Part shown: positions 1,211 through 30,413 of the stretch, one piece after another
Layout of the letters: each line of letters starts with the position of its first letter
Position numbering within the stretch: position 1 is the first letter of the stretch
Assembly (NCBI GenBank): GCA_903832025.1
Contig: CAIKZY010000088.1
Coordinates: 1-33,774, forward strand
Direction: 5' to 3'
Source: an uncultured Actinomycetes bacterium
GTDB lineage: Bacteria; Actinomycetota; Actinomycetes; S36-B12
Length of the DNA: 33,774 nucleotides
The notes under the pieces: model-generated
Told to the model about the DNA's origin: nothing
Seen by the model: the letters and a program-made list of their open reading frames with translations, nothing else
The model's database searches: none
Translations under genes and position numbers: made by a program

Positions 1211-1233
1211 TGATGAACACCGGAAAGGACACG

Positions 1234-7243: not shown

Positions 7244-8347
7244 TCACACGTCCTGGTGGCCGTTGTTGGACGCAAAGGACTCCTCGCGCCACAAGTCCAG
7301 CGAATGGATCATCGGGAAGTCATTGAAGTTGAACAAGAATGCGGGATTGTCCGCATCGTCGTTGTGATGCTCATGCCATGCCCAGCTCGGCACGACGAAG
7401 ATGTCGTGCTCCTTCCAGTCAAAGCGGCGCCCGTTGATGATCGAGTGTCCGCGACCCTCGGCCACGTGGTACACCACGCTGCCGGTATGGCGGTGCGCTT
7501 GGCCGGCGAAGCCGGCATGGAGCATCTGCATGTGCGCGCCCATGGTGGGCATGACCGAGCCACCGGTGACCGGATTGACGTATTCCATGATCACCCCGTC
7601 CCACACGGTTCCGTCGGAGACCTTGCCCAAGTTCTCCACGGCCTCTCGGGTCATCGCCCACGGGTAGCCCAGGCACGGGGAATAGCGCCTGCTCCAGGAC
7701 CGGCCGTCGGGCTTGAGCATGCCCGCACCGTGCGTCAGGAGCGAGGTGTTGATCACCTTTCCCGGCACCTGGTACAGGTCGGGGTGTACTTGGTAGAAGT
7801 TGGCATCGAGGGCATTGACCAGCGGGATGTCCAGGCCGTCTTGCCAGATCACGAAGTTGTCCTGCGCCTCATTGCCATGCTCGTGCCAGGTGCCATTGGG
7901 CGTGATGGCAAAGTCGTTGGGGCCAACGCGCAGACGATCGCCGTCCACGATCGTCCATGCGCCGGATCCCTCCACCACAAAGCGCAGCGCACTGGCCGCA
8001 TGCCGGTGGGCGGTCATCGACTCACCGGGATTCATGATCTGCAGTCCGGTGTAGAGCAGGCCCACCGCGGCAGAGATGTCCTTGCGGCCCTCATTGACCA
8101 GCATGATCACCCGGCGTCCGGCCTTTTCTCCCTGGACCAGGGAGGCTGATTCCACGACCAGGGGCCGAATGTCCTGGTAGGCCCAGTGCATGGGCACGGA
8201 CTTGGGCATGGGGAACCAGGGCTCGATCTCGTTGGCAACGGTCCATAGGGCGCCGGTTCCCAGCCCTTCCAGCCGCTGGTAAAACTCCTCGAGCTCCTCG
8301 GTGTCGTGGACGCGCGCGCGGCCGGCGACTTCTTCGATACGGGCCAT
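7244..8347 (-). CDS. Gentisate 1,2-dioxygenase-family bicupin ring-cleavage dioxygenase
   Basis: The chosen ATG at 8347 has AGGAG seven nt upstream; an in-frame start at 8389 would add 14 unconvincing residues. The protein is 367 residues, normal for the family. The N-terminal cupin carries the metal ligands in MTAHRHAASALRFVVEG (His114, His116) and TWHEHGNE (His155). A second cupin near residues 290-340 has AHRHTGSVVYHVAEG and SWAWHEHHND. Fe(II) members cleave gentisate to maleylpyruvate; relatives cleave salicylate, 5-substituted salicylates or 1-hydroxy-2-naphthoate. It leads the minus-strand operon and is divergent from the nitrilase-headed operon. Given the isatin- and anthranilate-type genes nearby, 5-hydroxyanthranilate is a possible substrate (inference). 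Confidence 0.9.
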   Translation of the reverse strand: MARIEEVAGRARVHDTEELEEFYQRLEGLGTGALWTVANEIEPWFPMPKSVPMHWAYQDIRPLVVESASLVQGEKAGRRVIMLVNEGRKDISAAVGLLYTGLQIMNPGESMTAHRHAASALRFVVEGSGAWTIVDGDRLRVGPNDFAITPNGTWHEHGNEAQDNFVIWQDGLDIPLVNALDANFYQVHPDLYQVPGKVINTSLLTHGAGMLKPDGRSWSRRYSPCLGYPWAMTREAVENLGKVSDGTVWDGVIMEYVNPVTGGSVMPTMGAHMQMLHAGFAGQAHRHTGSVVYHVAEGRGHSIINGRRFDWKEHDIFVVPSWAWHEHHNDDADNPAFLFNFNDFPMIHSLDLWREESFASNNGHQDV

Positions 8348-8497
8348 GACCACACTCCTGTCTGATTGCTGCAATCGCGTGAAACCCACGGAAACCTGCC
8401 GTGATCTTTGATCAAATGATACCGTACTGCCCGCAACCTGACCAGAGTTCGCCCCAAGTGGGCTGGATTGATGCAGTAGTTAAAGAGGTGTGAATCG
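8348..8497. promoter_or_regulatory. Divergent promoter region with TTTGATCAAA palindrome
   Basis: This 150-nt gap separates the dioxygenase operon from the nitrilase operon and must hold both promoters. A perfect 10-bp palindrome TTTGATCAAA lies at 8407-8416. TGATC steps recur about every 7 nt around it (TGATCTTTGATCAAATGAT), so two overlapping dyads are present. GATACC a few bases later could be a -10 element for the plus strand. No matching regulator can be assigned. Confidence 0.55.
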
Positions 8498-9493
8498 GTG
8501 CTGACCTACCCGTCCTATCGAGCCGCCGCCGTTCAGGCCGCGCCGGTGTTCTTGGACACCGACGCCACGATTGCCAAGGCCTGCGCACTGATAGCCGAAG
8601 CGGCCACCAATGGGGCGAAGTTGGTGGTGTTTCCCGAGGTGTTCGTCCCGGGGTATCCGTACTGGAACTGGACCATGACCCCGGGCCAGGGAAGCCCATG
8701 GTTTGAACGGCTGTTTCGCTCGGCGATCAACGTGCCCGGCCCGGAAGTGGACACCTTGTGCGCTGCTGCTGCCGCCGCCGGTGCATTCGTGGTCATGGGT
8801 GTCAACGAGCGCGACCCCTATTCGATGGGGACGTTGTACAACTCGCTGCTGTTCATCTCCGACACCGGTCAGCTCCTGGGCGTGCATCGCAAGCTGGTGC
8901 CGACCTGGGCCGAGAAGCTCACCTGGGGTAACGGTGATGGCAGCTCGCTGCGCATCTATGAAACATCCATCGGCCGTGTGGGCGGCCTGGCGTGCGGTGA
9001 GAACACCAACACCCTTGCGCGCTTTGCCCTCTTAGCCCAGGGGGAGAACATTCACACCGCCAACTACATCGCCTTGCCCACCGCGCCAGAGGACTACGAC
9101 ATGGTCGAGGCGATCAAGGTGCGCGCAGCGGCTCACTCCTTTGAGGGCAAGGTCTTCACCGTCGTGGCCAGCTCGGCCATTACCGACCACATCATCGACG
9201 CTGTGGCACACGATGACGCCAGCCGCGCGATGCTCTCGCGCAAGCACTGTGCGTTCTCGGGGATCTTTGGCCCAGACGGGCGCCTGATCTCCGAGCCCTT
9301 GATCGATGTGGAGGGCATCGCGTACGCCGATATCGACCTGAACAAGTGCATTCAACCCAAGCAGATGCACGACATCATCGGTCACTACAACCGCTTCGAC
9401 GTCTTCCAGTTGCGCATCAATCGCGCGCCTTTGGCCTCAGCCGAATTCGCCGACTGGCAGGACGTCACCGACCTGAACCCGCCGACCACCTAA
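8498..9493 (+). CDS. Nitrilase-superfamily C-N hydrolase
   Basis: Starts at GTG with AGAGG nine nt upstream; 331 residues. The catalytic triad is visible as Glu47 (VFPEVFVPGYP), Lys132 (HRKLVPTW) and Cys166 (GGLACGENTN). The length and the PGYPYWNW and YEMV-like helix regions fit branch 1 nitrilases, which turn nitriles into acids and ammonia. The residue after the nucleophile is Gly where many nitrilases have Trp (CWEN). It opens a long plus-strand operon with two FAH hydrolases and a maleate isomerase. Possible roles are hydrolysis of an aryl nitrile such as indole-3-acetonitrile, or amide hydrolysis of a ring-cleavage product; the sequence alone does not decide. Confidence 0.88.
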   Translation: MLTYPSYRAAAVQAAPVFLDTDATIAKACALIAEAATNGAKLVVFPEVFVPGYPYWNWTMTPGQGSPWFERLFRSAINVPGPEVDTLCAAAAAAGAFVVMGVNERDPYSMGTLYNSLLFISDTGQLLGVHRKLVPTWAEKLTWGNGDGSSLRIYETSIGRVGGLACGENTNTLARFALLAQGENIHTANYIALPTAPEDYDMVEAIKVRAAAHSFEGKVFTVVASSAITDHIIDAVAHDDASRAMLSRKHCAFSGIFGPDGRLISEPLIDVEGIAYADIDLNKCIQPKQMHDIIGHYNRFDVFQLRINRAPLASAEFADWQDVTDLNPPTT

Positions 9494-9515
9494 GAACAAC
9501 ACCGACAGGAGCATC

Positions 9516-10418
9516 ATGCGTTTTGTAACCTTCAGTTCCCCGGACAACGCCACGTCCCGCATTGGCGTGGTGCAGGGGGACACCGTGGTTGACCTGGCAG
9601 CCGCGCTGGCCGGCACCGTGGCCATTCCGCAGACCCTGTTGGCATACATCAGTGCAGGCAAGGCATTCCACGCGCAGACCGAGCAGGCACTGGCCGCGGC
9701 AACGGTGCCCGATAGCACTCGGTTCGACATCAGCTCGGTGCAGTTGCACGCACCACTTCGTCCGACCAAGGTCGTTGGGGTGGGACTGAACTACGTGGAG
9801 CACGTCGAGGAATCCTCGCGCACCCTGGACACCGACAAGGACCTGCCGACGCGTCCGGTGCTGTTCTCCAAGCCCGCGACCGCCGTCACCGGACCGGGTG
9901 CACCGATCTGGCACAACGGCGAGCTGACCGCGCAGTTGGACTGGGAATGCGAACTTGCCGTGGTGATGGGCACTGAGGCCAAGCATGTTGCCGAAGCCGA
10001 TGCCCTGGACTACGTCTTTGGCTACTCCATCATCAATGACATCTCCGCCCGTGACCAGCGTCGAAGTGGCCAGTGGTTCTTCTCCAAGGGCCAGGACTCC
10101 TACGCTCCCTTCGGGCCGATGGTCGTTACCGCCGATGAGATCGGAGACCCGCACACCCTGCAGCTGTCGCTGACGGTCAATGGCGATCAGCGCCAGAACG
10201 GCAACTCCAAGCACATGCTGTTCAAGATCCCGACGCTGATCGCCGACATCACCTCGGGCATGACGCTGGAGCCCGGCGATGTCATCGCGACCGGTTCGCC
10301 CCAAGGAGTGGGTGCGGCCATGAACCCGCCGACATTCCTGCAGCCCGGTGATGTCGTTGCGTGCACCATTGATCGCATCGGCACGCTGTCCAACCCGGTC
10401 GTGGCGGTCACGGCATGA
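9516..10418 (+). CDS. Fumarylacetoacetate hydrolase-family protein (fumaryl/maleylpyruvate hydrolase-like), first copy
   Basis: The protein has 300 residues, with AGGAG seven nt before the ATG. A FAH domain covers about residues 75-295: the metal-binding acidic residues are in QLDWECELAVVMG (E-x-E) and the later Asp of INDISARDQRR. Other conserved segments are WFFSKGQDSYAPFGPMVV and MTLEPGDVIATGSPQGVG. Family members hydrolyse C-C bonds of ring-cleavage products, here most plausibly maleylpyruvate, fumarylpyruvate or an amide analogue, to pyruvate plus a C4 acid. The stop overlaps the maleate isomerase start (ATGA), supporting consecutive steps. Confidence 0.88.
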   Translation: MRFVTFSSPDNATSRIGVVQGDTVVDLAAALAGTVAIPQTLLAYISAGKAFHAQTEQALAAATVPDSTRFDISSVQLHAPLRPTKVVGVGLNYVEHVEESSRTLDTDKDLPTRPVLFSKPATAVTGPGAPIWHNGELTAQLDWECELAVVMGTEAKHVAEADALDYVFGYSIINDISARDQRRSGQWFFSKGQDSYAPFGPMVVTADEIGDPHTLQLSLTVNGDQRQNGNSKHMLFKIPTLIADITSGMTLEPGDVIATGSPQGVGAAMNPPTFLQPGDVVACTIDRIGTLSNPVVAVTA

Positions 10419-11170
10419 GCAAGACCAAGTACCGCGTGGGCTTGATCGTTCCGAGTTCCAACGTCACGATGGAAACCGAAATCCCGGCCATGCTGCACGC
10501 GCGGGAGGCAATCCGCCCCGAGCGTTTCACGTTTCACTCCTCGCGCATGCGCATGAAGTCGGTGACCAAGGAAGAACTCGAGGCGATGGACGATGAGTCC
10601 GATCGCTGCGCCGTGGAACTGTCGGACGCCGCCGTTGACGTCATGGGGTACGCATGCCTGGTGGCGATCATGACCCGAGGCGTGGGCTACCACTGCATGT
10701 CCCAGGAGCGGCTCAGTGCGCGGGCGGCGGCTGAGGGTAGCCCCGCGCCGGTCGTGACCAGCGCCGGTGCCCTGGTGGATGCATTGCAGGTGATGGGCGT
10801 GAAGAAGATCGCCCTGATCGCCCCGTACATGAAGCCACTCACCGAACAGGTCGTTGCGTATATCGAGCACGAAGGTGTTGCCGTAGTGGACTACACCGCC
10901 TTGGAGATTGCGGACAACCTTGAAGTTGGCGCGCAGGATCCGATGAACCTGGTCGAGATCGTCAAGGGACTGAACCTTGACGATGCCGACGCGATCGTGC
11001 TCAGTGCCTGCGTGCAGATGCCCAGCCTGGAAGCCATTCAGGTGGTGCAGGATGCCACGGGCAAGCCCGTGCTGTCCGCGGCGGTGGCAACCACGTACTT
11101 CCTGCTGAAGGAACTGGGGCTGGAAACCGTGGTGCCCAATGCCGGTGCCCTGCTCAGCGGGCAGTACTAA
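10415..11170 (+). CDS. Maleate cis-trans isomerase-family protein (Asp/Glu racemase superfamily)
   Basis: The protein has 251 residues. The N-terminus RVGLIVPSSNVTMETEIP is characteristic of maleate isomerases and arylmalonate decarboxylase relatives. Two cysteines at the expected catalytic positions are present: Cys81 (GYACLVAIM) and Cys199 (LSACVQMPS). In the family a cysteine adds to the double bond and isomerises maleate to fumarate, with no cofactor. Overlap of 4 bp with the FAH gene suggests that the hydrolase releases maleate, which is isomerised here and fed to the TCA cycle. This points to a route in which the cis C4 acid is freed before isomerisation. Other racemase-like activities cannot be excluded. 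Confidence 0.85.
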   Translation: MSKTKYRVGLIVPSSNVTMETEIPAMLHAREAIRPERFTFHSSRMRMKSVTKEELEAMDDESDRCAVELSDAAVDVMGYACLVAIMTRGVGYHCMSQERLSARAAAEGSPAPVVTSAGALVDALQVMGVKKIALIAPYMKPLTEQVVAYIEHEGVAVVDYTALEIADNLEVGAQDPMNLVEIVKGLNLDDADAIVLSACVQMPSLEAIQVVQDATGKPVLSAAVATTYFLLKELGLETVVPNAGALLSGQY

Positions 11171-17713: not shown

Positions 17714-17739
17714 ATTTGCGATAGTCAATTTATCGAAAT
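17714..17739 (+). promoter_or_regulatory. Dyad operator upstream of the fused monooxygenase gene
   Basis: ATTTGCGATA is followed by GTCAATT and then TATCGAAAT, an inverted repeat whose arms differ by one inserted base. It lies 12-38 nt before the ATG at 17752, next to the CTGGAGG ribosome site. The 9-mer TTTGCGATA also occurs, inverted, in the divergent promoter near 22682. A repressor site is likely. Confidence 0.55.
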
Positions 17740-17751
17740 ACTGGAGGACGC

Positions 17752-20112
17752 ATGCGGATTGCAGTGATCGGTGGCGGACCGGGCGGGCTGTACTTCTCGT
17801 CACTGGTCAAGCAACTGGACCCCGCGGCGTCGGTGACCGTCTGGGAGCGCAACGCCCCAGATGACACCTTCGGCTTCGGCGTGGTCTTCAGTGACCAGAC
17901 GCTGTCGGGCATCAAGGCCTCCGATCGCGATGCCTTCGACGAGATGGGCCGTTCCTTTGCCTACTGGAATGACATCGACGTGTGGGTCGACGGGGAGCAG
18001 ATCACTATCGGCGGCAATGGCTTTGCCGCCATGAGCCGCAAGCAGCTGCTGAACGTGCTCCAGCGCAGAGCCCTGGAGCACGGGGTAGATGTGCACTTCC
18101 AGACCGAGGCGCCGCCGGTGGAAACCCTGATGGACCAGTACGACCTGGTCCTGGCCTGCGACGGCATCAACTCCCCGATTCGCGCGCACTACGCCACCGA
18201 GTTCGGGACGACCATCGATTCGCGTGAGTGCAAGTACATGTGGCTGGGCACCAACACCGTGTACGACGCATTCAAGTTCTTCGTCCTGAACACCCCCTGG
18301 GGTGTCATCCAGGTGCACGCCTACCCCATGGACGACAAGCAGTCCACCTTCATCGTGGAAATGCATGAGGATGTCTGGCGTGCCGGTGGCTTTGACCGAG
18401 TCGACGCTGCCAGTCTGCCTCCGGGGGTATCGGACGAGGAATCCATCGCACGGTTGCGTGAGCTGTTCGAACCGGTGCTGGACGGCGGTGACCTGCTGGC
18501 CAACAACAGCAAGTGGCTGGCCTTCCGGACCGTTCGCAACAAGACACTGGTGCACAAGAACATGGCGTTGCTGGGCGATGCCGCGCACACTGCGCACTTC
18601 TCCATCGGATCGGGCACCAAGCTGGCCATGGAAGACGCACTGGCCCTGGCGGCATGCGTGGCCGAGCAGCCCACGATCGAGCTGGCCCTGAAGGCATACG
18701 ACGCCGAGCGAGGCCCGGTCATCAAGAGCACCCAGCGGTCGGCACAGGCGTCGAGGGAGTGGTTCGAGGAGAACGGCCAGTACCAGGACCAGGACGTGAT
18801 GCAGTTCGAGTTCAACCTGATGACGCGCTCGCGTCGTATCACCTACGGCAACCTGCAAGAGCGCGACCCGATGTACATCCAGGCCATGGACGCCTGGCTG
18901 CTGGACGATCAGATCGCCGCCGGCAACGTCGCTGCCGGAACCAGCCCGCGTCCTCCCGTGTTCATGTCGTACACGCTCGGTGAGCTGCCCCTGGACAACC
19001 GTGTCGTGGTCAGCCCGTACGGGATCTATGCCGCCACCGATGGCGTTGTGAACAGCACGCACATTGCGCACTACGGCGCCCGAGCGCTGGGCGGTGCCGG
19101 GCTGCTGATCACCGAGATGACGGCGGTGTCACCCAGCGGTCGGATCACCGAAGGCTGCCCGGGCCTGTGGTCGGCTGAGCAGGTGCAGGCCTGGCGTGCG
19201 GTGACCGACCTGGTGCACACCACCAATGCCAAGATCGCCGTGCAGCTGGGCCACTCCGGTCCCAAGGGTGCATGCGAGCCGGCCTGGATGGGAATGGACA
19301 TCCCGATGGCACGCGGTGGCTGGGAACTGATCGGACCCGAGGCGGTCCCATACGCCCCGGCCGGAGCGGTGCCCAGGGCGATGACCGAGGCCGATATCGA
19401 GCAGGTCGTGGCCGAGTTCGTGGCGGCCACGGTCAACGCCGATGCAGCAGGATTCGATGCCCTTGAACTGCAGTTCGGTCATGGCTTCTTGCTGTCGGCG
19501 TTCTTGACGCCGGTGTCTAATCACCGCACTGACCAGTACGGCGGTGACCTGAACGGCCGCTTGCGTTTCCCCCTGCTGGTCCTGGATGCCGTGCGCGCTG
19601 CATGGCCGGCACACAAGCCGATTCTGGTTCGCATCTCGGCGACCGACTGGGTGCCCGATGGGCTGACCATGGACGATGCCGTGGCGATCTCGCGGACCGT
19701 GGTCGACCATGGTGCGGCCCTCATCGACGTGTCCACCGGGGAGACCACCGTCAAGGCACGGCCCGCATATGGGCGCACGTATCAAACCCCGTTCGCCGAC
19801 CGCATTCGTCAGCTGGCCAAGGTGCCGACGATGGCCGTGGGCGCAATCAGCAGCTACGACGATGTCAACACCATCATCGCGGCCGGCCGCGCTGACCTGT
19901 GCGCCATTGGCCGACCCCATATCTACGACCCGAACTGGACCCTGCATGCCGCTGCCGAGCAGGGCTTTGCCATGGACTGGCCCCCGATGTATGCCGTGGG
20001 TGCGGCCAAGCCGCCGGCCGGGCGGGCCGAGGATCCCAAGCCCCGCCTGGAGCTGGTCATCGACAGCTCGTCCGTGGTCGACCGCCCACGTCGATGGCAA
20101 CCGGCAACTTGA
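17752..20112 (+). CDS. Fused flavin monooxygenase/old yellow enzyme: 2-aminobenzoyl-CoA monooxygenase/reductase or salicylyl-CoA 5-hydroxylase type
   Basis: The protein has 786 residues in two domains. Residues 1-~390 are an FAD monooxygenase: AVIGGGPGGLYFSSLVKQLD at the N-terminus, LACDGINSPIR near 137, and LLGDAAHTAHFSIGSGTKL (Asp276). Residues ~400-760 are an FMN old-yellow-enzyme barrel: PLDNRVVVSPYGIYA, LGHSGPKGACEPAWMG, SNHRTDQYGGDLNGRLRFP and AVGAISSYDDVNTII. Known proteins with this order hydroxylate 2-aminobenzoyl-CoA or salicylyl-CoA at C5; the reductase half can reduce the ring. It starts at ATG after CTGGAGG and has its own operator. With the ligase at 28815 it would activate and hydroxylate an ortho-substituted benzoate. 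Confidence 0.9.
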   Translation: MRIAVIGGGPGGLYFSSLVKQLDPAASVTVWERNAPDDTFGFGVVFSDQTLSGIKASDRDAFDEMGRSFAYWNDIDVWVDGEQITIGGNGFAAMSRKQLLNVLQRRALEHGVDVHFQTEAPPVETLMDQYDLVLACDGINSPIRAHYATEFGTTIDSRECKYMWLGTNTVYDAFKFFVLNTPWGVIQVHAYPMDDKQSTFIVEMHEDVWRAGGFDRVDAASLPPGVSDEESIARLRELFEPVLDGGDLLANNSKWLAFRTVRNKTLVHKNMALLGDAAHTAHFSIGSGTKLAMEDALALAACVAEQPTIELALKAYDAERGPVIKSTQRSAQASREWFEENGQYQDQDVMQFEFNLMTRSRRITYGNLQERDPMYIQAMDAWLLDDQIAAGNVAAGTSPRPPVFMSYTLGELPLDNRVVVSPYGIYAATDGVVNSTHIAHYGARALGGAGLLITEMTAVSPSGRITEGCPGLWSAEQVQAWRAVTDLVHTTNAKIAVQLGHSGPKGACEPAWMGMDIPMARGGWELIGPEAVPYAPAGAVPRAMTEADIEQVVAEFVAATVNADAAGFDALELQFGHGFLLSAFLTPVSNHRTDQYGGDLNGRLRFPLLVLDAVRAAWPAHKPILVRISATDWVPDGLTMDDAVAISRTVVDHGAALIDVSTGETTVKARPAYGRTYQTPFADRIRQLAKVPTMAVGAISSYDDVNTIIAAGRADLCAIGRPHIYDPNWTLHAAAEQGFAMDWPPMYAVGAAKPPAGRAEDPKPRLELVIDSSSVVDRPRRWQPAT

Positions 20113-20202
20113 CCGTGCCGTGCGCTGACTTCCGCTACCGTCCACGTCACCAACTGCACATGCTCCGCACCCCACCACCACCGCACCGCGAAGGGAAATG
20201 CA

Positions 20203-20970
20203 ATGTCCGATCTGTTGAGCCTTGCCGCAGCGATCGCCAGCGGCTCCGTGCAGGTCATTGACCTGACCAGCCCGCTGCACCATGACACCCCGATCCTGGG
20301 ACTGCCGCCGGAGATGGGCCAGACCGCGCGGTTTGAACTGGAGGAGATCAGTCGGTACGACGATCGCGGGCCAGCCTGGTACTGGAACAATTTCACGACC
20401 GGCGAGCACACCGGCACGCACTTTGATGCGCCCAACCACTGGGTCACCGGCAAGGACCTCGATGACATCAGTCAGGTTCCCGTCACCCGCATGATCGGTC
20501 CTGCTGCAGTGATCGACAAGACCGCCGAGGTCGCGGCCAACCCCGACTACCTGCTGACCATGGATGACATCACTGCCTGGGAAGCAGCCAACGGAACATT
20601 GCCTGACGGCGGCTGGCTGTTGCTGCGCACCGGCTGGTCCAAGTTCGGCGACGATCCGGCGGCATTTGCCAATGCGGACGAGCAGGGCCCGCACACCCCC
20701 GGCCTGTCACCGCAAGCCGCCCGCTACCTGGCCGAGGAGACCAAGCTGCTGGGCTTTGGCACCGAGACAGTAGGCACCGATGCAGGTGGGGCCTTCGGAT
20801 TCGATCCGCCGTTCCCGTGCCACTCGCTGTTCCTGGGCAACAACAAGTACGGCCTGACCCAACTGCGCAACCTGGACAAGCTCCCGGCCACCGGCGCCGT
20901 GGTCATCGCGTTGCCGTTGCCGATTGTCAACGGCTCCGGCAGCCCATGCCGGGTGATCGCGCTGGTGTAG
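20203..20970 (+). CDS. Cyclase-family metal hydrolase, isatin hydrolase-like
   Basis: The protein has 255 residues, with AAGGGAAA before the ATG. The cyclase/kynurenine formamidase fold is marked by GEHTGTHFDAPNHWVTG, with His69, His73, Asp75 and His79 as metal or catalytic residues. Two further segments, RGPAWYWNNFTTGEHTG and GFGTETVGTDAG, match my memory of isatin hydrolases, which are about this long; kynurenine formamidases are nearer 210 residues. Isatin hydrolase opens the isatin ring to isatinate, a step towards anthranilate in some indole-3-acetate pathways. It is downstream of the fused monooxygenase by 90 nt and ends at a hairpin. Kynurenine formamidase or another arylamidase remains possible. 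Confidence 0.82.
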   Translation: MSDLLSLAAAIASGSVQVIDLTSPLHHDTPILGLPPEMGQTARFELEEISRYDDRGPAWYWNNFTTGEHTGTHFDAPNHWVTGKDLDDISQVPVTRMIGPAAVIDKTAEVAANPDYLLTMDDITAWEAANGTLPDGGWLLLRTGWSKFGDDPAAFANADEQGPHTPGLSPQAARYLAEETKLLGFGTETVGTDAGGAFGFDPPFPCHSLFLGNNKYGLTQLRNLDKLPATGAVVIALPLPIVNGSGSPCRVIALV

Positions 20971-21069: not shown

Positions 21070-22650
21070 TCAGTGGCGAAGCAGTCGTTGGGCGACCAGG
21101 AATCCTGAGCCACCACCTAGACCCGGACCGGGGTGGGTGGATGCGCCGATATGCCACAGTCTGTTGATGTCGGTGCGGTGACCGCGTGCGGTCGACAAGG
21201 GGCGCCACGCGGCGTACTGGTCCACGCGGCAGTCCCCGCCGTAGGGATCCCCGCCCACCAGGTTGCAGTTCATGGCCTCAATCTCTGCTGGTCCCAGCAC
21301 CACGGTGCCGGTAGCCGCTGATCGAATGTTGGCGATGTGCGGCTGCAACTGGTCGATCACGCGATCGGCATAGGCATCGCGCAGCTCCGAGGTCCAGGCG
21401 CCGGCACCGGGATCGATCACCCCGGCCAGGTCCCCGCGCACGTGTCGGGGATTTTCCTGCAGCTGAATCCACAGCAGTCCCTTGCCCTCTGGCACGCGAG
21501 TGGCATCGATCGTGGCTGGTTGGCCCACCACGATCGTTGGCCGGGACGGCAGCATGCCGCGCCAGGCAGCATTGACCGATTCAGACAGCGATCCCATCGA
21601 GTCCAGCACATGGACCATGGCCGTGCGCGCAAGACGGTCATCGCCCACCCAGGCCGGCGGTGCGTCCAAGGCAATGTGAATCTGCATCGCGGCGCGGCCA
21701 TAGCGAAACGCATCAGCGGCCTGCGCCGTTGGCGCCGGCACCACGTCACTGGGCAGCAGGTGTTGATACAGGGCTTGCGGAGTGACCGATGCCACGATGG
21801 CCTTGCGTGCGGCGATCACTGAGCCGTTGGACAGATGCACCGCGCGGGCTGTTCCCTCGGTGACCTCGATGCGCTCGACGGTGGAGTCGGTCATGAGCGC
21901 ACCGCCGGCATCGGTGATGATGCCGATCAGCGCATCAACCACGGTGACGCCACCGCCGACCGGCACCGGCATGCCGCCCCAGGCGATCGCCGCAGCGATG
22001 ACCTTGGTGATGAAGGCACTGGATGCGTCATCTGGCCCCAGCCCGTTGTGCAGTGCCCATGGAGCCAGCAGGGCATGGGTCACCGGTGAGGTGAACGTGC
22101 GCTCCAGCCACGGCGCCGCCGGTTCCAGCATTTCGGCTCCCTGACCGACCAAGCCGCGAGTGCCCAGGGCACGCCAGGCCTTCCAGCCGAACTTCATCGC
22201 CGAGGAGCGCCAAAAGTCAGTGCCCAGGACCCCGAAGGCCAGATCCGCCTTGGCGGCGAAGTCACCGATCATCTGCTCCCACGCCGGCCCATCACCTAAT
22301 GCATGCATCTGCTCGGCGGTGGCTGCGGCGTCGGTGGACAGCACCGCGGTCCCGTCGGCACACACCACCCCGGTCGGGGAGTCGGTGTTCTGGTAGACCA
22401 CCCCGCGCGCGGCAAGGTCACCGGACAGCGCCCCATAGGCCGGACCACCGACAAACAGCGGATGCCAGCTCGAAAGCTGCTCCACGGTGTAGCCGTCAAA
22501 CATCGCCGTGGTGGTGGCGATCGCACCGCCGGGCACCCGGTTGCGCTCGATCAGCGCAACCGTCCACCCGCCCTTGGCCAGCATGGCCCCGGCAACCAGC
22601 GCATTGATGCCACTGCCGATGATGACGGCATCAAAGCGCTGCTGCGTCAT
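21070..22650 (-). CDS. PYROXD2/phytoene desaturase-like FAD oxidoreductase, copy 1
   Basis: The ATG at 22650 has GGAGGGGAA directly upstream; an upstream in-frame ATG at 22689 is unlikely. The protein has 526 residues. The FAD motif is DAVIIGSGINALVAGAMLAK at residues 7-26, followed by ERNRVPGGA. The C-terminal FAD segment is WHIGASTHPGPGLGGGSG. It resembles the NAD(P)/FAD-dependent carotenoid-desaturase-like group, whose catabolic members oxidise C-C or C-N bonds. It is divergent from a paralogue that starts 89 nt away, and convergent with the cyclase gene. Substrate is unknown; a dihydro- or amino-intermediate from the CoA route is a guess. Confidence 0.82.
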   Translation of the reverse strand: MTQQRFDAVIIGSGINALVAGAMLAKGGWTVALIERNRVPGGAIATTTAMFDGYTVEQLSSWHPLFVGGPAYGALSGDLAARGVVYQNTDSPTGVVCADGTAVLSTDAAATAEQMHALGDGPAWEQMIGDFAAKADLAFGVLGTDFWRSSAMKFGWKAWRALGTRGLVGQGAEMLEPAAPWLERTFTSPVTHALLAPWALHNGLGPDDASSAFITKVIAAAIAWGGMPVPVGGGVTVVDALIGIITDAGGALMTDSTVERIEVTEGTARAVHLSNGSVIAARKAIVASVTPQALYQHLLPSDVVPAPTAQAADAFRYGRAAMQIHIALDAPPAWVGDDRLARTAMVHVLDSMGSLSESVNAAWRGMLPSRPTIVVGQPATIDATRVPEGKGLLWIQLQENPRHVRGDLAGVIDPGAGAWTSELRDAYADRVIDQLQPHIANIRSAATGTVVLGPAEIEAMNCNLVGGDPYGGDCRVDQYAAWRPLSTARGHRTDINRLWHIGASTHPGPGLGGGSGFLVAQRLLRH

Positions 22651-22681
22651 TTCCCCTCCAAGGCTTGCCCATGACTGCGTA

Positions 22682-22714
22682 TATCGCAAAGATGTCGATC
22701 GTCAGTTTTGCATA
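22682..22714. promoter_or_regulatory. Dyad operator in the divergent promoter of the two oxidoreductases
   Basis: TATCGCAAA is separated by 15 nt from TTTTGCATA, a near-inverted copy, with a CGATCG palindrome at the centre (22696-22701). The left arm is the exact reverse complement of TTTGCGATA found before the fused monooxygenase gene. The site lies between starts at 22650 and 22739. Confidence 0.55.
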
Positions 22715-22738
22715 GGACACGCGGGATTGGGTCTGTTC

Positions 22739-24283
22739 ATGGCAACAGCGGTGGATGTCATCGTCATCGGATCAGGGGTCAACGGCCTGTCCGCGGCGGC
22801 CCTGCTGGCCAAGTCCGGCAAGTCGGTGCTGGTCCTGGAAGCCAACGACCGCCCAGGCGGCGCGGTGCGGACCGAGCAGATCACTCTGCCGGGGTTCCAT
22901 CATGATCTCTTCGCCATGAACCTGGGCCTGTTCGCCGGTGGCCCGGTCAATGCTGCCCTGGGCGCTGACCTGGCCCGACACGGCTTTGAGCTCGTGCCGT
23001 CGGCCAAGCCGTTCTGCTCACTGTTTCCCGACGGTTCGGTCCTGGGGGTGCAGGCAGACCCCGCGGCCACCTTGGCCAACGTCATCGCCCTGGCTCCCCA
23101 GGACGGCCTGGCCTGGCAGTGCCTGACCGAGCAACTGGGCTCCTGGGCACCGCACCTGATCGGGATGCTCGGCGCCGACATGCCCAGCGTGAAGGCGGCC
23201 AAAACCCTGTACAAGGCGCGCAAGGACCTGGGGAACGACGGTGTCTACGAACTGGTCAAGCTCGCCTTGGCATCCACGAGGTCGTTCACCGATCAGCACT
23301 TCACCGACCCACGTGTGAAGGCACTGATGGCCTCGTGGGGGATGCACTTGGATTTCGCCCCCGATGTTCCCGGCGGTGCGATGTTCGCATTCTTGGAAAC
23401 CTTCGGCGGACAGCTGTTCGGCATGGTGATCGGCAAGCACGGTGCCGCAGGCATGATCAACGCCCTGGTCGGGGTGATCGAGGAATACGGTGGAACCGTG
23501 CGCACCAGCGCACCGGTTGAGCACATTGATGTCACCAATGGTCGTGCGACCGGGGTGCGCATTGCCGGCGGCGAGCAGTTCACTGCACGCAAGGCCGTGA
23601 TCTCCAACGTCAACCCCGCGCTCATGCCGGCATTGCTGCCACCGGAGATTGCGGCCCGGCCTGCGGTGGCGCGGGCCAGGCAGTTCCAGCCCGGACTGGC
23701 CACGATGATGATGCACCTGGCATTGGACGCCCAGCCGGACTGGATCAATCCTCAGGCAAAGGACTACAACTACGTCCACATCGGTCCGTATGTCGATGAC
23801 ATGGCCATGACCTATGCCCATGCACAGGCAGGTCGCCTGCCGGACCACCCCACGCTGGTGGTGGGACAGCCAACGGTCACTGACCCATCACGGGCACCGG
23901 AGGGCAAGCATGTGCTGTGGGTGCAAGTACGCATGCTGCCGTTGACGTTGGCCGATGGCCGCACCTGGGACGACGCCGCCCCGGCCTATGCCGAGCACGT
24001 GCTTGACCTGCTGGAGCAATACGCACCCGGCCTGCGCGGGCACATCCTGGGATCGGCAGTGCTCTCCCCGGCAGACCTGCCCCGATACAACGTCAATCTC
24101 GTGCAGGGGGATTCGCTGGGCGGCAGCCACCATCCGGCACAGTTCTTCTTCCTGCGTCCGGTTCCCGGCTGGGGACGGCATCGGACCCCAATTGACGGGC
24201 TGTATGTGTGCGGCGCCAGTACCTGGCCAGGCGGTGGCGTGGGTGGCACCTCCGGTGCGCTGGTCGCAGACAGCCTGACCTAG
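22739..24283 (+). CDS. PYROXD2/phytoene desaturase-like FAD oxidoreductase, copy 2
   Basis: The ATG at 22739 gives 514 residues; the frame is open much further upstream, but that stretch overlaps the opposite gene and is not coding. The FAD motif is DVIVIGSGVNGLSAAALLAK with EANDRPGGAVRTEQ, and the C-terminal segment is GLYVCGASTWPGGGVGGTSG. It is clearly homologous to the divergent copy 1, but the two differ widely, so the duplication is not recent. Both genes share one short intergenic operator, so they are probably co-regulated. The ribosome site is weak (GGGATTGGG about 7-14 nt upstream). Confidence 0.82.
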   Translation: MATAVDVIVIGSGVNGLSAAALLAKSGKSVLVLEANDRPGGAVRTEQITLPGFHHDLFAMNLGLFAGGPVNAALGADLARHGFELVPSAKPFCSLFPDGSVLGVQADPAATLANVIALAPQDGLAWQCLTEQLGSWAPHLIGMLGADMPSVKAAKTLYKARKDLGNDGVYELVKLALASTRSFTDQHFTDPRVKALMASWGMHLDFAPDVPGGAMFAFLETFGGQLFGMVIGKHGAAGMINALVGVIEEYGGTVRTSAPVEHIDVTNGRATGVRIAGGEQFTARKAVISNVNPALMPALLPPEIAARPAVARARQFQPGLATMMMHLALDAQPDWINPQAKDYNYVHIGPYVDDMAMTYAHAQAGRLPDHPTLVVGQPTVTDPSRAPEGKHVLWVQVRMLPLTLADGRTWDDAAPAYAEHVLDLLEQYAPGLRGHILGSAVLSPADLPRYNVNLVQGDSLGGSHHPAQFFFLRPVPGWGRHRTPIDGLYVCGASTWPGGGVGGTSGALVADSLT

Positions 24284-24286: not shown

Positions 24287-24309
24287 AGCACCCCTGATTG
24301 GGGCCTGCT
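24287..24309. terminator. Small convergent hairpin
   Basis: AGCACCCC, loop TGATT, then GGGG, two bulged C and TGCT form a stem between the convergent oxidoreductase and PaaX-like genes. Its strength is moderate and there is no T-tract. Confidence 0.45.
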
Positions 24310-25130
24310 CAGGTGGGAATCTGCTCCCTGGCGAAAGCCAGGGCTTGGCCGGCCAGCTTGTCGTGAATGTCGAAGAACACCGCCGTGCCGGTACGACCAG
24401 GCCAGGACTTGGGCAAGTACGCCGCCGGCAGCCCGGGATCCAGATACGGAATAGCCCGCCAGGCCGTCAGCGCACGGGTGTAGTCGGCGAAGGCGGCGCG
24501 GGACTGACTGGCGCGGGCAGGGGCCTTCCACCGATTGGCCATCGGGCGAAACGCCTTGGTGAAACTGGTGTAGAGGTCGGCGATGGCATCCAGGTCCCAC
24601 CATTGCCGGACGACCTGCGCACTGGGTCGAAAGCCGATGTGCTCGGCGGTGAACAGATCCACGCACTGCTGGATCTGCAAGCTGGACACCACATGGCGCA
24701 GGTCCTGCTCGAGCTGGCGCGGTGCGATCCACAACCCACCGCTGACCTGTGCAGAGCCGATCGCGGACAGCCGGGAGCGCAGTCGATAGCGCACGTCACG
24801 CTTGGTCTCAGGAATGGAGAATGCCGCCAGCACCCACCCCATGTCGGCCGGTGGATGCCTGCGCTGCAGCACGCGCGCATCGCCAAGGTCGAATGTCGTT
24901 CGCGCCACTGGTGCCAGGGCGTAGCCGGCCAGTCCATTGTGTCGCTCGGCAAGCACGATGCCGCGGCGCTTCATCCGAGACAGCGCACCGCGGACGCTGG
25001 ACTGGTCGATATCGACCAGGGTCAGCATGTCCACCAGTGAGGACACCGGGAACCAGCCACCCAATTGGCGGCTGTAGGCACCGTAAATCGTCACGATCAG
25101 CGATTGCGGACGCTGCGCCCGCGCGGTCAC
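24309..25130 (-). CDS. PaaX-family transcriptional regulator
   Basis: The GTG at 25130 is preceded by GGGGAAAG at 7 nt and gives 273 residues; a GTG at 25160 is an alternative. The N-terminal winged-helix PaaX domain (about residues 1-80) has LIVTIYGAYSRQLGGWFPVSSLVDMLTLVDIDQSSVRGALSRMKRRG, seen here in short pieces such as QSSVRGALSRMKRRG. The middle and C-terminal domains carry GLWIAPRQLEQDL and RTGTAVFFDIHDKLAGQA. PaaX proteins repress catabolic operons and respond to an aryl-CoA such as phenylacetyl-CoA, so this one may sense the aryl-CoA made here (inference). It faces the LLM gene across a gap that contains a 23-bp tandem repeat. Confidence 0.82.
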   Translation of the reverse strand: MTARAQRPQSLIVTIYGAYSRQLGGWFPVSSLVDMLTLVDIDQSSVRGALSRMKRRGIVLAERHNGLAGYALAPVARTTFDLGDARVLQRRHPPADMGWVLAAFSIPETKRDVRYRLRSRLSAIGSAQVSGGLWIAPRQLEQDLRHVVSSLQIQQCVDLFTAEHIGFRPSAQVVRQWWDLDAIADLYTSFTKAFRPMANRWKAPARASQSRAAFADYTRALTAWRAIPYLDPGLPAAYLPKSWPGRTGTAVFFDIHDKLAGQALAFAREQIPT

Positions 25131-25190
25131 GTCGATGCTTTCCCCGCTGATCCCCGCCACGCAGCGCAGCCTAGGGCACGCCCGCGCCGG

Positions 25191-25236
25191 CTGGACAGGA
25201 CAGCGCGTGCGGCCTGGACAGGACTGCGCGTGCGGC
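25191..25236. repeat. Two tandem 23-bp repeats in the PaaX/LLM intergenic region
   Basis: Two abutting 23-bp units (25191-25213 and 25214-25236) both begin CTGGACAGGAC and end GCGCGTGCGGC, and differ at one base. The period of about two helical turns places both copies on the same face of the DNA, as expected for a tandem regulator site. Confidence 0.8.
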
Positions 25237-25352
25237 TTGGGCTGCTTCAGCGACCAGGATTCCGCGCAAAGTGGATAGACGAAGGACGCCTGGCTTGGCC
25301 ACGATGGGACCAACGTGCTCTGGACGGTCCAGATCCCTTGGGAGGAGATCAC

Positions 25353-26453
25353 ATGGCAAAGGCGATCCTTGACGGTATGGATTTCAAACTCGGCTTGTTC
25401 TCGTCGAACTGCTCGTCAGGGCTGGCGGTCACCAAGGCCCCTGACCGGTGGTCGGGAAGCTGGGATGACAACCTGCGTCTGGCCAAGATCGCCGACGAGG
25501 TCGGCATTGATTTCCTGCTGCCCATCGCTCGCTGGATCGGCTACGGCGGCGAGACGAACTTCCATGGCAGCGTGCTGGATCCCATCACCTGGGCCGCCGG
25601 GCTGCTGGCCAACACCAAGCGCATCTTCTGCTTCGCCACGGTCCATACCGCCTACAACCATCCGATCGTGATCGCCAAGCAGATGGCCACCGTCGACCAG
25701 ATCAGCAAGGGCCGCGCGGGCATCAATGTGGTTGCGGGCTGGAACAAGCCCGAGTACGACACCTTCGGCATGGACCTGCCGCAAGACCACGATGCTCGCT
25801 ACGCCCTGGCACAGGAGTGGCTCGATGTGATCGTGAAGATCTGGACTACGCCGGGACAGTTCGACTGGGACGGGCAGTTCTACCACTTGCAGCATGTTGA
25901 GGGCCTGCCCAAGCCTTATGACGGCGTTCTGCCGATCTTGAACGCCGGTTCCTCCGGCCAGGGTCGTACCTACGCGGCCCGCAATGCCAACTTCGGCTTC
26001 ACGGTCGTTGGCGGCCCTGAGGACGGTGCGGGCGTGGTCACGGCTATTCGCGATGAGGCCAAGAACACCTTCCACCGTGATATGGGCGTCTTCACCCTGG
26101 GCCATGTCGTGGTGCGGCCCACCCAGCAAGAGGCCGAGGACTTCTTGCACTACTACGCAGAGGAAAACGCCGATTGGGACGCGGTGGAAAACCTCATGGC
26201 ATTGCAGGGGCTGCACGCGCAGTCCTTCACTCCCGAGATGCTGTCCATGTTCCGCGGTCGCTTTGCCGCCGGTCATGGCTCATGCCCGCTGATTGGCGAT
26301 CCGGACACGGTTGCCAACGAGATTGCCCGGTTCGCCGAAGCCGGATTCGGCGGCATGACGCTGGCCTTCTTGGACTACGCCGAGGAGCTGCCGTATTTCG
26401 CGCAGGAGGTACTGCCGCGCCTGGAAGCCAAGGGCGTTCGCTTGCCGCGGTAA
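25353..26453 (+). CDS. LLM-class flavin-dependent monooxygenase (RutA/SfnG-like)
   Basis: The ATG at 25353 follows GGGAGGAG and gives 366 residues. It is a bacterial luciferase-like barrel: LGLFSSNCSSGLAVTK at the N-terminus, FHGSVLDPITWAAGLLANT, VHTAYNHPIVIAKQMATVDQ, GRAGINVVAGWNKPEY and PILNAGSSGQGRTYAARNA. These segments resemble RutA-type pyrimidine oxygenase and dimethylsulfone monooxygenase, which use reduced FMN from a partner reductase. A flavin reductase and a WrbA-like protein lie just downstream. It could oxygenate a heterocycle, but the substrate is not evident. Confidence 0.88.
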   Translation: MAKAILDGMDFKLGLFSSNCSSGLAVTKAPDRWSGSWDDNLRLAKIADEVGIDFLLPIARWIGYGGETNFHGSVLDPITWAAGLLANTKRIFCFATVHTAYNHPIVIAKQMATVDQISKGRAGINVVAGWNKPEYDTFGMDLPQDHDARYALAQEWLDVIVKIWTTPGQFDWDGQFYHLQHVEGLPKPYDGVLPILNAGSSGQGRTYAARNANFGFTVVGGPEDGAGVVTAIRDEAKNTFHRDMGVFTLGHVVVRPTQQEAEDFLHYYAEENADWDAVENLMALQGLHAQSFTPEMLSMFRGRFAAGHGSCPLIGDPDTVANEIARFAEAGFGGMTLAFLDYAEELPYFAQEVLPRLEAKGVRLPR

Positions 26454-27499: not shown

Positions 27500-28104
27500 A
27501 GCAGGTAACCATCGCAGTGATCTACTACTCGTCAACGGGCAATGTTGCGCAGATGGCGCATGCAGTGGCCGATGGCGCTCGAGCTGCGGGCGCGGAGGTA
27601 AAAGTTGCCCGCGTTGCCGAGACGGCCCCGCAGCAGGCGATCGACCACAACCCCAAATGGCAGCAGTTTCTCACCGAGAACACTGACCCCATCGCGAGCC
27701 TGGAAGACCTGACCTGGGCGAACGGCCTTGCCTTCGGGAGCCCGACCCGCTTCGGCGGCCCGGCCTCGCAGCTGAAGTCCTTCTTGGACACCACTGGCAG
27801 CCTGTGGTTCCAAGGCGAGCTGGCCAAGAAGGTGTGCACTTCATTCACCACTGCGTCGACGCAGCATGGCGGCCTGGAGTCGACGATCCTGGCGCTGAAC
27901 AATCACTACTACCACTGGGGCTCGATGGTGATGCCACTTGGCTATGGCGACCCGCACGTGATGAAGGTAACCGGGAACCCGTACGGCGCCTCCTGGGTCT
28001 CTCGTTCGGGTGCCTCGCCAGATGCCGACTGCCTGCAGGCCTGTCGCGCTCAAGGTGCACGCCTGGCACAGGTCACCCGGCAACTGAACACCCCGATGGC
28101 ATGA
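27493..28104 (+). CDS. WrbA/flavodoxin-like NAD(P)H:quinone oxidoreductase
   Basis: The protein has 203 residues, with AAGG before the ATG. The FMN phosphate loop is VIYYSSTGNVAQMAHAVADG at residues 8-27, and the ring-binding loops are GSPTRFGGPASQLKSFLDT near 80 and STQHGGLESTILAL near 120. WrbA-type proteins carry out two-electron reduction of quinones, avoiding semiquinones. Its partners here are the overlapping AraC regulator and flavin reductase genes. It may reduce a quinone or quinone-imine formed from a 5-hydroxylated aminobenzoate, or serve as a flavin carrier for the LLM enzyme; both are inferences. Confidence 0.88.
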   Translation: MVKQVTIAVIYYSSTGNVAQMAHAVADGARAAGAEVKVARVAETAPQQAIDHNPKWQQFLTENTDPIASLEDLTWANGLAFGSPTRFGGPASQLKSFLDTTGSLWFQGELAKKVCTSFTTASTQHGGLESTILALNNHYYHWGSMVMPLGYGDPHVMKVTGNPYGASWVSRSGASPDADCLQACRAQGARLAQVTRQLNTPMA

Positions 28105-28757
28105 CGGGGATTCCCGAGCGCATCCTCACCGACCCGAGCAGCCAGGGGGTCTACGGATTGCTCGGCGCTCTGGTCAGCCCACGGCCGATCGCGTGGGTCA
28201 GTACCAAGAGTGCTACCGGCGTGGACAACATCGCCCCGCACTCCTTCTATCAACTGGTCAGCACCACGCCGCCCATCGTGATGATCAGCTCGATGGGGGA
28301 GAAGGACACGGTGCGCAACATCCGTCACAACGGCCAATTTGTGGTCTGCGGAAGCGCGGGGCAGTGGGTGGAGCAGATCAATGCCACCGCGACCGAGTTC
28401 GGACCGGACGTCAGCGAATTCGACATGGCGGGCCTGACCCGCGAGCCAAGCCAGATGGTCACCCCGTGCCGCGTCGCTGAGTCACCGTATGCACTGGAAT
28501 GCCACCTGGTCGACATCCACGAAGTCGGCAATGGACTGGTGGTGTACGGACAGGTGGTGCTGATTGCGGTCAGCGCATCAGTCATGAACGGTTCTGGCAT
28601 CGACATGGCCGCTTTGAATCCGATTGCTCGATTATCTGGCTCGGACTGGTCGCTGCTGGGGCGCACGATCACCGTCGATCGGATGAGCGTGGACACCTTC
28701 CGGGAGCGGTATCCCCACGGCATGGGACCGGCATCGGGGCGCCCGTCTGGGGATTGA
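28101..28757 (+). CDS. Flavin reductase-family (DIM6/NTAB-like) protein
   Basis: The ATG at 28101 overlaps the WrbA stop (ATGA) and gives 218 residues. The FMN-binding split barrel is marked by PRPIAWVSTKSATGVDNIAPHSF (in short: PRPIAWVST, NIAPHSFYQLVS) near residues 27-53, PPIVMISSM and KDTVRNIRHNGQFVV. Such proteins supply reduced flavin to two-component monooxygenases. The LLM monooxygenase encoded 1.6 kb upstream on the same strand is an obvious partner. It is last in the gene run before the operator of the ligase gene. Confidence 0.85.
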   Translation: MTGIPERILTDPSSQGVYGLLGALVSPRPIAWVSTKSATGVDNIAPHSFYQLVSTTPPIVMISSMGEKDTVRNIRHNGQFVVCGSAGQWVEQINATATEFGPDVSEFDMAGLTREPSQMVTPCRVAESPYALECHLVDIHEVGNGLVVYGQVVLIAVSASVMNGSGIDMAALNPIARLSGSDWSLLGRTITVDRMSVDTFRERYPHGMGPASGRPSGD

Positions 28758-28814: not shown

Positions 28815-30413
28815 ATGACCACTGCGCAGGTCGATACCTTTGCATTGGATCGGCTACCAGCACGTGCCGCCTGGCCGGTCATGACCGCCATGGGCTACCC
28901 CGAGCGCACCAACTGCGCCGTGACCCTGCTGGACCAGACGGTTGCTGACCTGGGCCCGAATCGACCGTGCATCACGGCCGACGATGCGACGTGGACCTAC
29001 GGCGAGCTCCTGGACAGCGTTGAACGCTGCGCATCGGTGCTGGCGAACTGGGGGGTCCAATCGGGCAACCGGGTACTCCTGCGCATTCCGAATAACGCCT
29101 GGCTGGCTGCATCATGGCTGGCGATCTTGCGCATCGGCGCCATCCCGGTCACCACGATGACCATGATGCGCCATCTGGAACTGGCCAAGGTCATCGATAT
29201 CGCCAACGTCCAGTGGGCCATCGTCGATCACCGATTCACGCAGGAGTTCGATGACTTCGCGGTGCCGACGCTGATCAGCGGCGGTGAGCAGGCTGACACC
29301 CTGCAAGCCCAGGCTGCGCGTGTGCGCGACCGCGTCGCACCCTGTGCGACCTATGCCACCGATATCGCCCTGCTGGCCTTCACCTCAGGCACCACGGGCA
29401 AGCCCAAAGCCACCATGCACACCCACGCCGATGTCCTGGCAATTGCCGACACCTTCAGTGCGCAGATCCTCAAGCCCAACGCCGATGACGTGTTCTGCGG
29501 CACTCCGCCGTTGGCGTTCACGTTCGGGCTCGGCGGCCTCCTGATCTTCCCGCTGCGCGTTGGGGCATCCACAGTGCTCATCGAACAGGCCGACCCCGCG
29601 GCGGTATTGCAGACGATCGCCGGTCATCGGGTGTCATGCCTGTTCACCGCTCCGACGGCCTATCGGGCGTTGCTGTCGGTGCTCGGCCAGGCCCAGGCGG
29701 CCGGGGCCATGGTGGACATCTCATCCCTGCGCCGGTGCGTGTCCGCAGGGGAAACTCTTCCTGAGGCGATTTGGACCCAGTGGTTCACCCAGACGGGCGT
29801 GAAGCTCATCGATGGCATCGGCGCGACCGAGATGCTGCACATCTTCATCAGTGCCGCAGATGACGACATCGTTCCCGGCGCAACCGGGCGCCCGGTGCCC
29901 GGCTACGAGGCGATGGTCGTGGACGATGCGTTCAAGCCGGTTCCCCCCGGTGAGCTCGGCCGTCTGGCGGTACGCGGCCCAACCGGCTGTCGCTATCTGG
30001 ATGACGATCGGCAACAGATCTATGTCCAGCATGGATGGAATGTCACCGGCGACATCTACACCTGCGATGAGCGCGGCTACTTTCGCTACATCGCCCGCGG
30101 CGACGACATCATCGTGTCCTCCGGGTACAACATCGCCGCTCCGGAAGTCGAGGCGGCGCTGCTGATGCACGACGCAGTCGCCGAAGTCGCAGTCGTCGGC
30201 GATCCAGACGAGCAGCGAGGCATGATCGTGCATGCGTTCGTGGTGCTCAACGACGGAGCCGATGCAGCGCAGATGACCGTGACACTGCAAGAGCACGTCA
30301 AGTCGATCATCGCGCCCTACAAGTATCCGCGCAAACTCACGTTCGTGGACGCGCTACCGCGGACGGCAACCGGCAAGCTCCAGCGCTTTCGACTGCGCGA
30401 CGGGCTGGGCTAG
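28815..30413 (+). CDS. Aryl-CoA ligase, 2-aminobenzoate-CoA ligase-like (ANL superfamily)
   Basis: The protein has 532 residues. The AMP/ATP loop is TSGTTGKPK (residues 190-198), followed by the motif regions GTPPLAFTFGLGGLLIFPLR, LRRCVSAGETLP, DGIGATEMLHIF, GWNVTGDIYTCDE and SSGYNIAAPEVE. The C-terminal catalytic lysine is Lys521 (RTATGKLQRFRLR). The set SLRRCVSAGE, GATEMLHIF and GWNVTGD is, from memory, most typical of 2-aminobenzoate-CoA and benzoate-CoA ligases. It would make the aryl-CoA used by the fused monooxygenase. It has its own operator and overlaps the convergent Lrp-like gene by 4 bp at the stops. Salicylate is an alternative substrate. Confidence 0.85.
   Translation: MTTAQVDTFALDRLPARAAWPVMTAMGYPERTNCAVTLLDQTVADLGPNRPCITADDATWTYGELLDSVERCASVLANWGVQSGNRVLLRIPNNAWLAASWLAILRIGAIPVTTMTMMRHLELAKVIDIANVQWAIVDHRFTQEFDDFAVPTLISGGEQADTLQAQAARVRDRVAPCATYATDIALLAFTSGTTGKPKATMHTHADVLAIADTFSAQILKPNADDVFCGTPPLAFTFGLGGLLIFPLRVGASTVLIEQADPAAVLQTIAGHRVSCLFTAPTAYRALLSVLGQAQAAGAMVDISSLRRCVSAGETLPEAIWTQWFTQTGVKLIDGIGATEMLHIFISAADDDIVPGATGRPVPGYEAMVVDDAFKPVPPGELGRLAVRGPTGCRYLDDDRQQIYVQHGWNVTGDIYTCDERGYFRYIARGDDIIVSSGYNIAAPEVEAALLMHDAVAEVAVVGDPDEQRGMIVHAFVVLNDGADAAQMTVTLQEHVKSIIAPYKYPRKLTFVDALPRTATGKLQRFRLRDGLG

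Follow-up and report, generated by a model that had tools for sequence, protein, structure and literature searches.

An isatin-hydrolase-like cyclase encoded with 2-aminobenzoyl-CoA-type and IorAB genes in an uncultured actinomycete

Introduction

Which reaction is catalysed by a Cyclase-family protein encoded next to a gene of the 2-aminobenzoyl-CoA type, and does it tie the genes around it to the catabolism of indole or indole-3-acetate (IAA)? This question is raised by one contig of an uncultured actinomycete, of which we analysed a stretch of 33,774 nucleotides (hereafter the window). The host genome is 98% complete and probably derives from a freshwater organism, a habitat deduced from the names of its relatives. 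Isatin hydrolase genes in indole degraders have been flagged as worth functional study, according to the excerpts of PMC6221969 used here. The features of the window relevant to the argument are:

18..2295, + strand: branched-chain/urea-type ABC transporter with an ATPase and two permeases, truncated by the contig start
2418..3983, − strand: IorB-type subunit, 'indolepyruvate oxidoreductase subunit beta family' (NF006179, 638 bits, cut-off 348)
3980..6148, − strand: IorA-type alpha subunit of a ThDP 2-oxoacid:acceptor oxidoreductase, carrying C-terminal Fe-S cysteines (CVGCGLC); isatinate oxidoreductase is the function proposed for it
7244..8389, − strand: gentisate 1,2-dioxygenase-like bicupin (331 bits, cut-off 442); candidate lower-route ring-cleavage enzyme
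8498..11170, + strand: nitrilase-superfamily amidase, FAH-family hydrolase, and maleate isomerase/arylmalonate decarboxylase-family enzyme
17752..20112, + strand: FAD monooxygenase and OYE fusion (ABM), 786 aa, of the 2-aminobenzoyl-CoA monooxygenase/reductase or salicylyl-CoA 5-hydroxylase type
20203..20970, + strand: isatin-hydrolase-like protein of the Cyclase family (PF04199), 255 aa, with HxGTHxDxPxH, a WYW pocket, and GLTQ in place of GLQC/GLAS
21070..22689, − strand: NAD(P)/FAD-dependent oxidoreductase (FADox1) of the amine oxidase/CrtI superfamily, possibly for oxidation toward isatin
22745..24283, + strand: NAD(P)/FAD-dependent oxidoreductase (FADox2), paralog of FADox1 (36%)
24309..25352, − strand: PaaX-like regulator
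25356..26453, + strand: FMNH2-dependent luciferase-like monooxygenase, RutA/SfnG-like
28050..28757, + strand: flavin reductase (PF01613) that could plausibly serve the FMN monooxygenase
28815..30413, + strand: benzoate-CoA ligase-type enzyme, plausible 2-aminobenzoate-CoA ligase

Results

The cyclase groups with isatin hydrolases

The cyclase gene is an intact ORF that lies 3' of GAAGGGAAATGCA, starts with ATG, and ends with a stop at 20968-20970. The first-pass annotation had placed its product closer to isatin hydrolase than to kynurenine formamidase, and the features it invoked are all present: the 255-residue length, the HTGTHFDAP core at residues 69-77 (20407-20433 of the window), and the segment GTETVGTDAG at residues 186-195. 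The gene also lies, as described there, 3' of the 2-aminobenzoyl-CoA-type gene on the same strand, 90 bp behind it. The protein matches the PF04199 profile with 136.7 bits (cut-off 23.1) and is 50-53% identical, at equal length, to three assayed isatin hydrolases. This resemblance is far above chance. When all PDB chains were searched with phmmer, the top four belonged to LaIHA, RsIHA, and LaIHB (296-275 bits), the best being isatin hydrolase A (296 bits, 2.2e-87), whereas the kynurenine formamidase 4cob reached only 26 bits (3.9e-5). Orthologs of the cyclase with 71-79% identity are found in 18 further genomes of the same family.

The phylogeny of the cyclase family, which had been suggested as a check, gathers the protein and the assayed isatin hydrolases in one clade (100/98) apart from other cyclases; the outgroup sequences, only one of them arylformamidase-like, have long branches, which leaves the exact relations beyond this clade uncertain. 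Inside it, LaIHA, RsIHA, and LaIHB share a proteobacterial branch (96/87), whose sister is the actinobacterial branch of the window's protein (99/97). All assayed isatin hydrolases belong to the former; for the latter, we are aware of no assayed enzyme. The AlphaFold2 monomer of the cyclase has isatin hydrolase chains as its first 12 structural matches (E 2.8e-27), followed by other cyclases and then by KynB (1.3e-10). The mean pLDDT of this model is 67, with poor values over most of the active-site region (32-69, 76-86, 192-212), and the model is weak in the part swapped between subunits in solved dimers. Given this low pLDDT, we left side-chain geometry out of the argument. Sequence, tree, predicted fold, and active-site residues agree in bringing the protein closer to isatin hydrolase than to kynurenine formamidase, in line with the initial proposal. 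By sequence, it is a member of the isatin hydrolase clade and most likely acts like an isatin hydrolase.

A conserved active site with a GLTQ motif

We compared the cyclase with LaIHA at the active-site residues named in PMC6117287. Nine of them (W59, W61, H69, H73, D75, H79, W80, D193, and H207) are the same residues with the same numbering, and Y204 of LaIHA corresponds to F204. The metal motif HxG[T/A]HxDxPxH takes the form HTGTHFDAPNH (residues 69-79), the aromatic pocket WXW/FXW that of W59-Y60-W61, completed by W80 and the aromatic F204, and the proton relay of His79 and His207-Asp193 is conserved with identical residues and numbering. Across 30 members, the only deviation at these nine positions is an F in place of W59 in a single protein.

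The motif GLQC or GLAS, in which Q219 partly coordinates Mn2+ and the following C or S regulates proton flow, has been proposed as a signature of isatin hydrolase activity (PMC6117287). It is absent from the cyclase, which has GLTQ at that place. All 12 family members compared have G(L/V)TQ, and 80 actinobacterial relatives have GLTQ in most cases, GLTS in six, and GLAQ in two, while the proteobacterial members sampled retain QC or AS. Since the cyclase does not carry the signature, we name it isatin-hydrolase-like and not a proven isatin hydrolase.

GLTQ could mark a changed specificity, with the protein acting as a cyclic amidase on another aromatic lactam or imide (e.g., dioxindole or oxindole-3-acetate) and its product acid still being fed onward. 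Such a change would fit a differing motif that is conserved through the sister clade, all assayed enzymes being on the other branch. It would also fit the observation that deletion of iadI in Variovorax accumulates C8H7NO2, so that IadI acts downstream of a compound with the formula of dioxindole, even if its exact substrate is unsettled (PMC12633357). Yet the pocket and the catalytic residues are otherwise as in LaIHA, enzymes known to be active already differ in the motif (GLQC, GLAS, and the engineered GLAC; PMC6117287), and the partner enzymes described below point to a 2-oxo acid product, which is given by isatin and not by dioxindole. We consider a different lactam or imide as substrate to be unlikely.

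The genes around the cyclase

The ABM protein matches PF01494 and PF00724 and scores 1060 bits with NF006101, slightly below the cut-off of 1078. Its fused FAD monooxygenase-OYE architecture suggests the 2-aminobenzoyl-CoA monooxygenase/reductase type, with a putative substrate for which salicylyl-CoA is the alternative. What looked like an in-frame TAG in one relative's ABM ortholog proved to be the natural stop codon. The distant iorAB genes (2418-6148) and the two FAD oxidoreductases had been left unconnected to the cyclase in the first-pass annotation. IorAB retains its Fe-S cysteine motifs, and phmmer found no PDB relative of IorA. FADox1 and FADox2 (21070-24283) are two divergent CrtI/amine-oxidase-like paralogs that both Actinobacteria and Roseobacters retain along with the cyclase; the listed ORF of FADox2 begins at 22508 and its homology at about 22745. 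In other Actinobacteria, ligases encoded next to ABM and the cyclase are 53-58% identical to the ligase of the window, and an ABC transporter of the same type accompanies the cyclase in several relatives.

Other parts of the window are less easily placed. The tartrate dehydrogenase-type gene between iorA and the dioxygenase (6167-7234; TIGR02089, 488 bits, above the cut-off of 470) has no obvious pathway role. The segment 11179-16759 (Amidohydrolase_2, Ldh_2, SDR, FAD hydroxylase, two cupins, and RidA) mostly lacks close counterparts at that place in the compared relatives and is possibly another inserted aromatic module. An IS3-type transposase pair lies at the contig end (32553-33721).

We searched for these genes in 85 genomes of the host's family, 19 of which encode the cyclase. 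IorA is found in 19/19 of the latter and in 4/66 of the others (Fisher 2e-15), and full-length ABM in 19/19 and 5/66, respectively (Fisher 1e-14), p values that overstate independence because these are related genomes of one family. FADox1 is present in all 12 cyclase genomes tested and in 0/4 genomes devoid of cyclase and IorA, and the FMN monooxygenase in 9 of the same 12. Outside Actinobacteria, Proteobacteria repeat the cyclase-IorAB neighbourhood: it occurs in Paracoccus, on two plasmids of Novosphingobium, and in Burkholderia multivorans, whose cyclase is 79% identical to RsIHA. A cluster of the freshwater-actinomycete type (76% cyclase, ABM, FADox1/2) also appears in a record titled Bifidobacterium breve MAG, which is probably mislabelled.

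The proposed link to indole or IAA held in part. The segment from isatin to aminobenzoyl-CoA is backed by the presence of ABM in every cyclase genome of the family, and the window carries both iorA and iorB, which PMC9613470 names as markers exclusive to iad-like loci. The specific tie to indole or IAA found no such backing. In the iad route, IAA is first attacked by IadCDE (PMC12633357). A search for the IAA oxygenase IadD found no ortholog in the host genome, whose four Rieske alpha proteins, none of them encoded in the window, give partial matches of about 25-27%. On this basis we rejected IAA degradation by an IadCDE-type locus. A search of the host genome for a StyA-type indole monooxygenase, run without positive control, gave no match. 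Indole or IAA is plausible as the upstream substrate.

IorA and a ThDP decarboxylase-type enzyme alternate beside the cyclase

In 65 of the 80 nearest named actinobacterial cyclase loci, the cyclase gene is followed on its own strand, mostly after 6-130 bp, by the gene of a ThDP enzyme from the acetolactate synthase/benzoylformate decarboxylase superfamily. IorA is encoded within the fetched flank of nine loci; none has both partners and six have neither, some of them being truncated. The two partners are mutually exclusive beside the cyclase (Fisher 2e-8), but a tree-based test counted about 3-5 independent switches, too few for significance (sign test, median p 0.5). In the window's family, the genomes have no close homolog of the ThDP decarboxylase (25% in the host, at best 45% over a fragment elsewhere). 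An ortholog of the ThDP enzyme (57%) is found in Agrobacterium pusense near a cyclase, a thiolase, and an SDR. The cyclase and ThDP genes resemble a two-gene unit in Streptomyces, Nonomuraea, Blastococcus, and others.

Both partner families, IorAB and the ThDP decarboxylase type, act on 2-oxo acids, and so the product of the cyclase is probably isatinate. Hydrolysis of isatin gives this compound, with the keto acid free on the ring, unlike what formylkynurenine or dioxindole would give. We propose, with about even confidence, that IorAB is an isatinate:acceptor oxidoreductase whose direct product would be 2-aminobenzoyl-CoA, so that the CoA pathway is entered without ATP, and that the ThDP decarboxylase found with this cyclase in other Actinobacteria is interchangeable with it. 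The role of iorAB as a marker of isatin-forming iad loci would then be accounted for. In the literature searched, neither the turnover of isatinate, including a step to 2-aminobenzoyl-CoA, nor the part played by iorAB in iad loci is assigned, and the cluster offers a concrete, testable answer: the excerpts of PMC6221969 and PMC9613470 do not assign isatinate to IorAB, and we found no paper joining isatin with benzoylformate decarboxylase and anthranilate, or isatin with indolepyruvate, oxidoreductase, and indole degradation.

The cyclase might instead be an isatin hydrolase next to a functionally unrelated IorAB, which would convert indolepyruvate to indoleacetyl-CoA in the metabolism of tryptophan or auxin, while another enzyme turned isatinate into anthranilate for the ligase at 28815. 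The named relatives of IorA and IorB are indolepyruvate enzymes, a benzoate-CoA-ligase-type gene does lie in the window, and the nine-gene iadC-K2 region, without iadA/iadB, suffices for anthranilate in Variovorax (PMC12633357, the main text of which does not mention iadA or iadB). We judge this arrangement rather improbable, because no aminotransferase was noted in the window, IorAB and the cyclase occur together across two phyla, IorA and the ThDP type exclude each other beside the cyclase, and the window's family is devoid of a close homolog of the latter.

A proposed pathway

We think it fairly probable that the cyclase opens isatin, or a ring-substituted isatin, that IorAB makes 2-aminobenzoyl-CoA, and that the FAD/OYE fusion then acts on it. 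The cyclase, a metal-dependent cyclic amidase (Mn2+ by homology), would hydrolyse its substrate to isatinate (2-aminophenylglyoxylate), with the metal held by H69, H73, and D75 and the water activated by the D193-H207 dyad and H79, as in the solved enzymes. The conserved linkage suggests that IorAB would then convert isatinate and CoA to 2-aminobenzoyl-CoA and CO2 by an oxidative decarboxylation without ATP. The domain architecture of the adjacent FAD/OYE fusion points to a subsequent 5-hydroxylation/reduction of 2-aminobenzoyl-CoA. We infer the substrate and metal of the cyclase, the substrate of IorAB, and the order of the steps from the observed clade membership, residues, linkage, and co-occurrence. 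In most other Actinobacteria, the second step would be carried out by the ThDP decarboxylase-type enzyme directly downstream of the cyclase. FADox1, FADox2, and the FMN monooxygenase are candidate sources of isatin, and the ligase at 28815 may recapture free anthranilate.

The block 7244-11170, next to iorAB, resembles one found by iorA in Sagittula stellata (16032-20721 of that locus; 51-75% identity). Because this gentisate-dioxygenase-like/nitrilase/FAH/maleate isomerase block is mirrored there, we conjecture a lower route in which ring cleavage of 5-hydroxyanthranilate would lead to maleamate, maleate, and fumarate.

Several points count against the proposed pathway: the replacement of the signature motif by GLTQ in a branch for which we know no assayed enzyme, co-occurrence counts drawn from related genomes of one family, the small number of independent IorA/ThDP switches, the presence of a CoA ligase that would be superfluous for the IorAB route, and an IorA for which phmmer gave no PDB relative and whose named relatives act on indolepyruvate. 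Anthranilate could also reach the CoA pathway from tryptophan catabolism, with the cyclase as kynurenine formamidase or as a different Cyclase-family enzyme of that route: the Pfam fold is identical, and 2-aminobenzoyl-CoA genes elsewhere can follow kynurenine-route anthranilate. This has a negligible probability, since the cyclase scores 37 bits with the NCBIfam arylformamidase model TIGR03035 (cut-off 223), of which it is the sole match in the host genome, has GLTQ where KynB has the second-metal motif I(L/I)E (PMC6117287), and is encoded in a window where no kynureninase or tryptophan dioxygenase was seen; on model score, motif, and tree, we rejected a kynurenine formamidase identity.

Discussion

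With this cluster, the isatin hydrolase clade gains a large actinobacterial branch that is uncharacterised and has an active-site motif of its own, and isatin metabolism probably reaches into freshwater actinobacteria. Its cyclase shares the metal site, proton relay, WxW/FxW pocket, and predicted fold with LaIHA and RsIHA (GLQC) and LaIHB (GLAS), known from PDB entries 5nna/5nnb, 5nmp, and 4j0n/4m8d, and differs from them by its GLTQ motif and its position in the sister actinobacterial clade.

The iad auxin loci of Variovorax and Bradyrhizobium, represented here by Roseibium and Sulfitobacter, have, like the window, a gene of the isatin hydrolase clade, located at the iadI position. In Roseibium, a gene 96% identical to the assayed LaIHA is part of an operon (reductase, Rieske alpha and beta, AMP ligase, thiolase, SDR, cyclase, SDR) that agrees with the iadC-J gene roles of PMC12633357, and Sulfitobacter plasmids show the same order. 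We count the Roseibium operon, and with it the C8H7NO2 accumulation on loss of iadI in Variovorax (PMC12633357), in favour of the proposed pathway. No IadD ortholog was found in the window, which has instead the FAD/OYE fusion, the two FAD oxidoreductases, and the FMN monooxygenase.

The Roseobacter clusters of the LaIHB type share cyclase, FADox1, FADox2, IorA, and IorB with the window, and differ from it by the GLAS motif and by MarR regulators. Their order in Tritonibacter is FADox2-cyclase-FADox1-MarR-IorA-IorB. Alloyangia pacifica (styrene/indole monooxygenase, flavin reductase, FAD/OYE fusion, RidA, FAH, cupin, cyclase, FADox1, MarR, IorAB) has ABM, RidA, FAH, and cupin in common with the window, to which it adds the styrene/indole monooxygenase.

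Finally, the 2-aminobenzoyl-CoA pathway of Azoarcus evansii and Arthrobacter Rue61a, where the activity of the FAD/OYE fusion has been described (PMC3534580), combines, as does the window, a FAD monooxygenase/OYE fusion with a CoA ligase. In those organisms the CoA ester comes from anthranilate and the ligase; in the window it would not arise in this way only, but from isatinate via IorAB.
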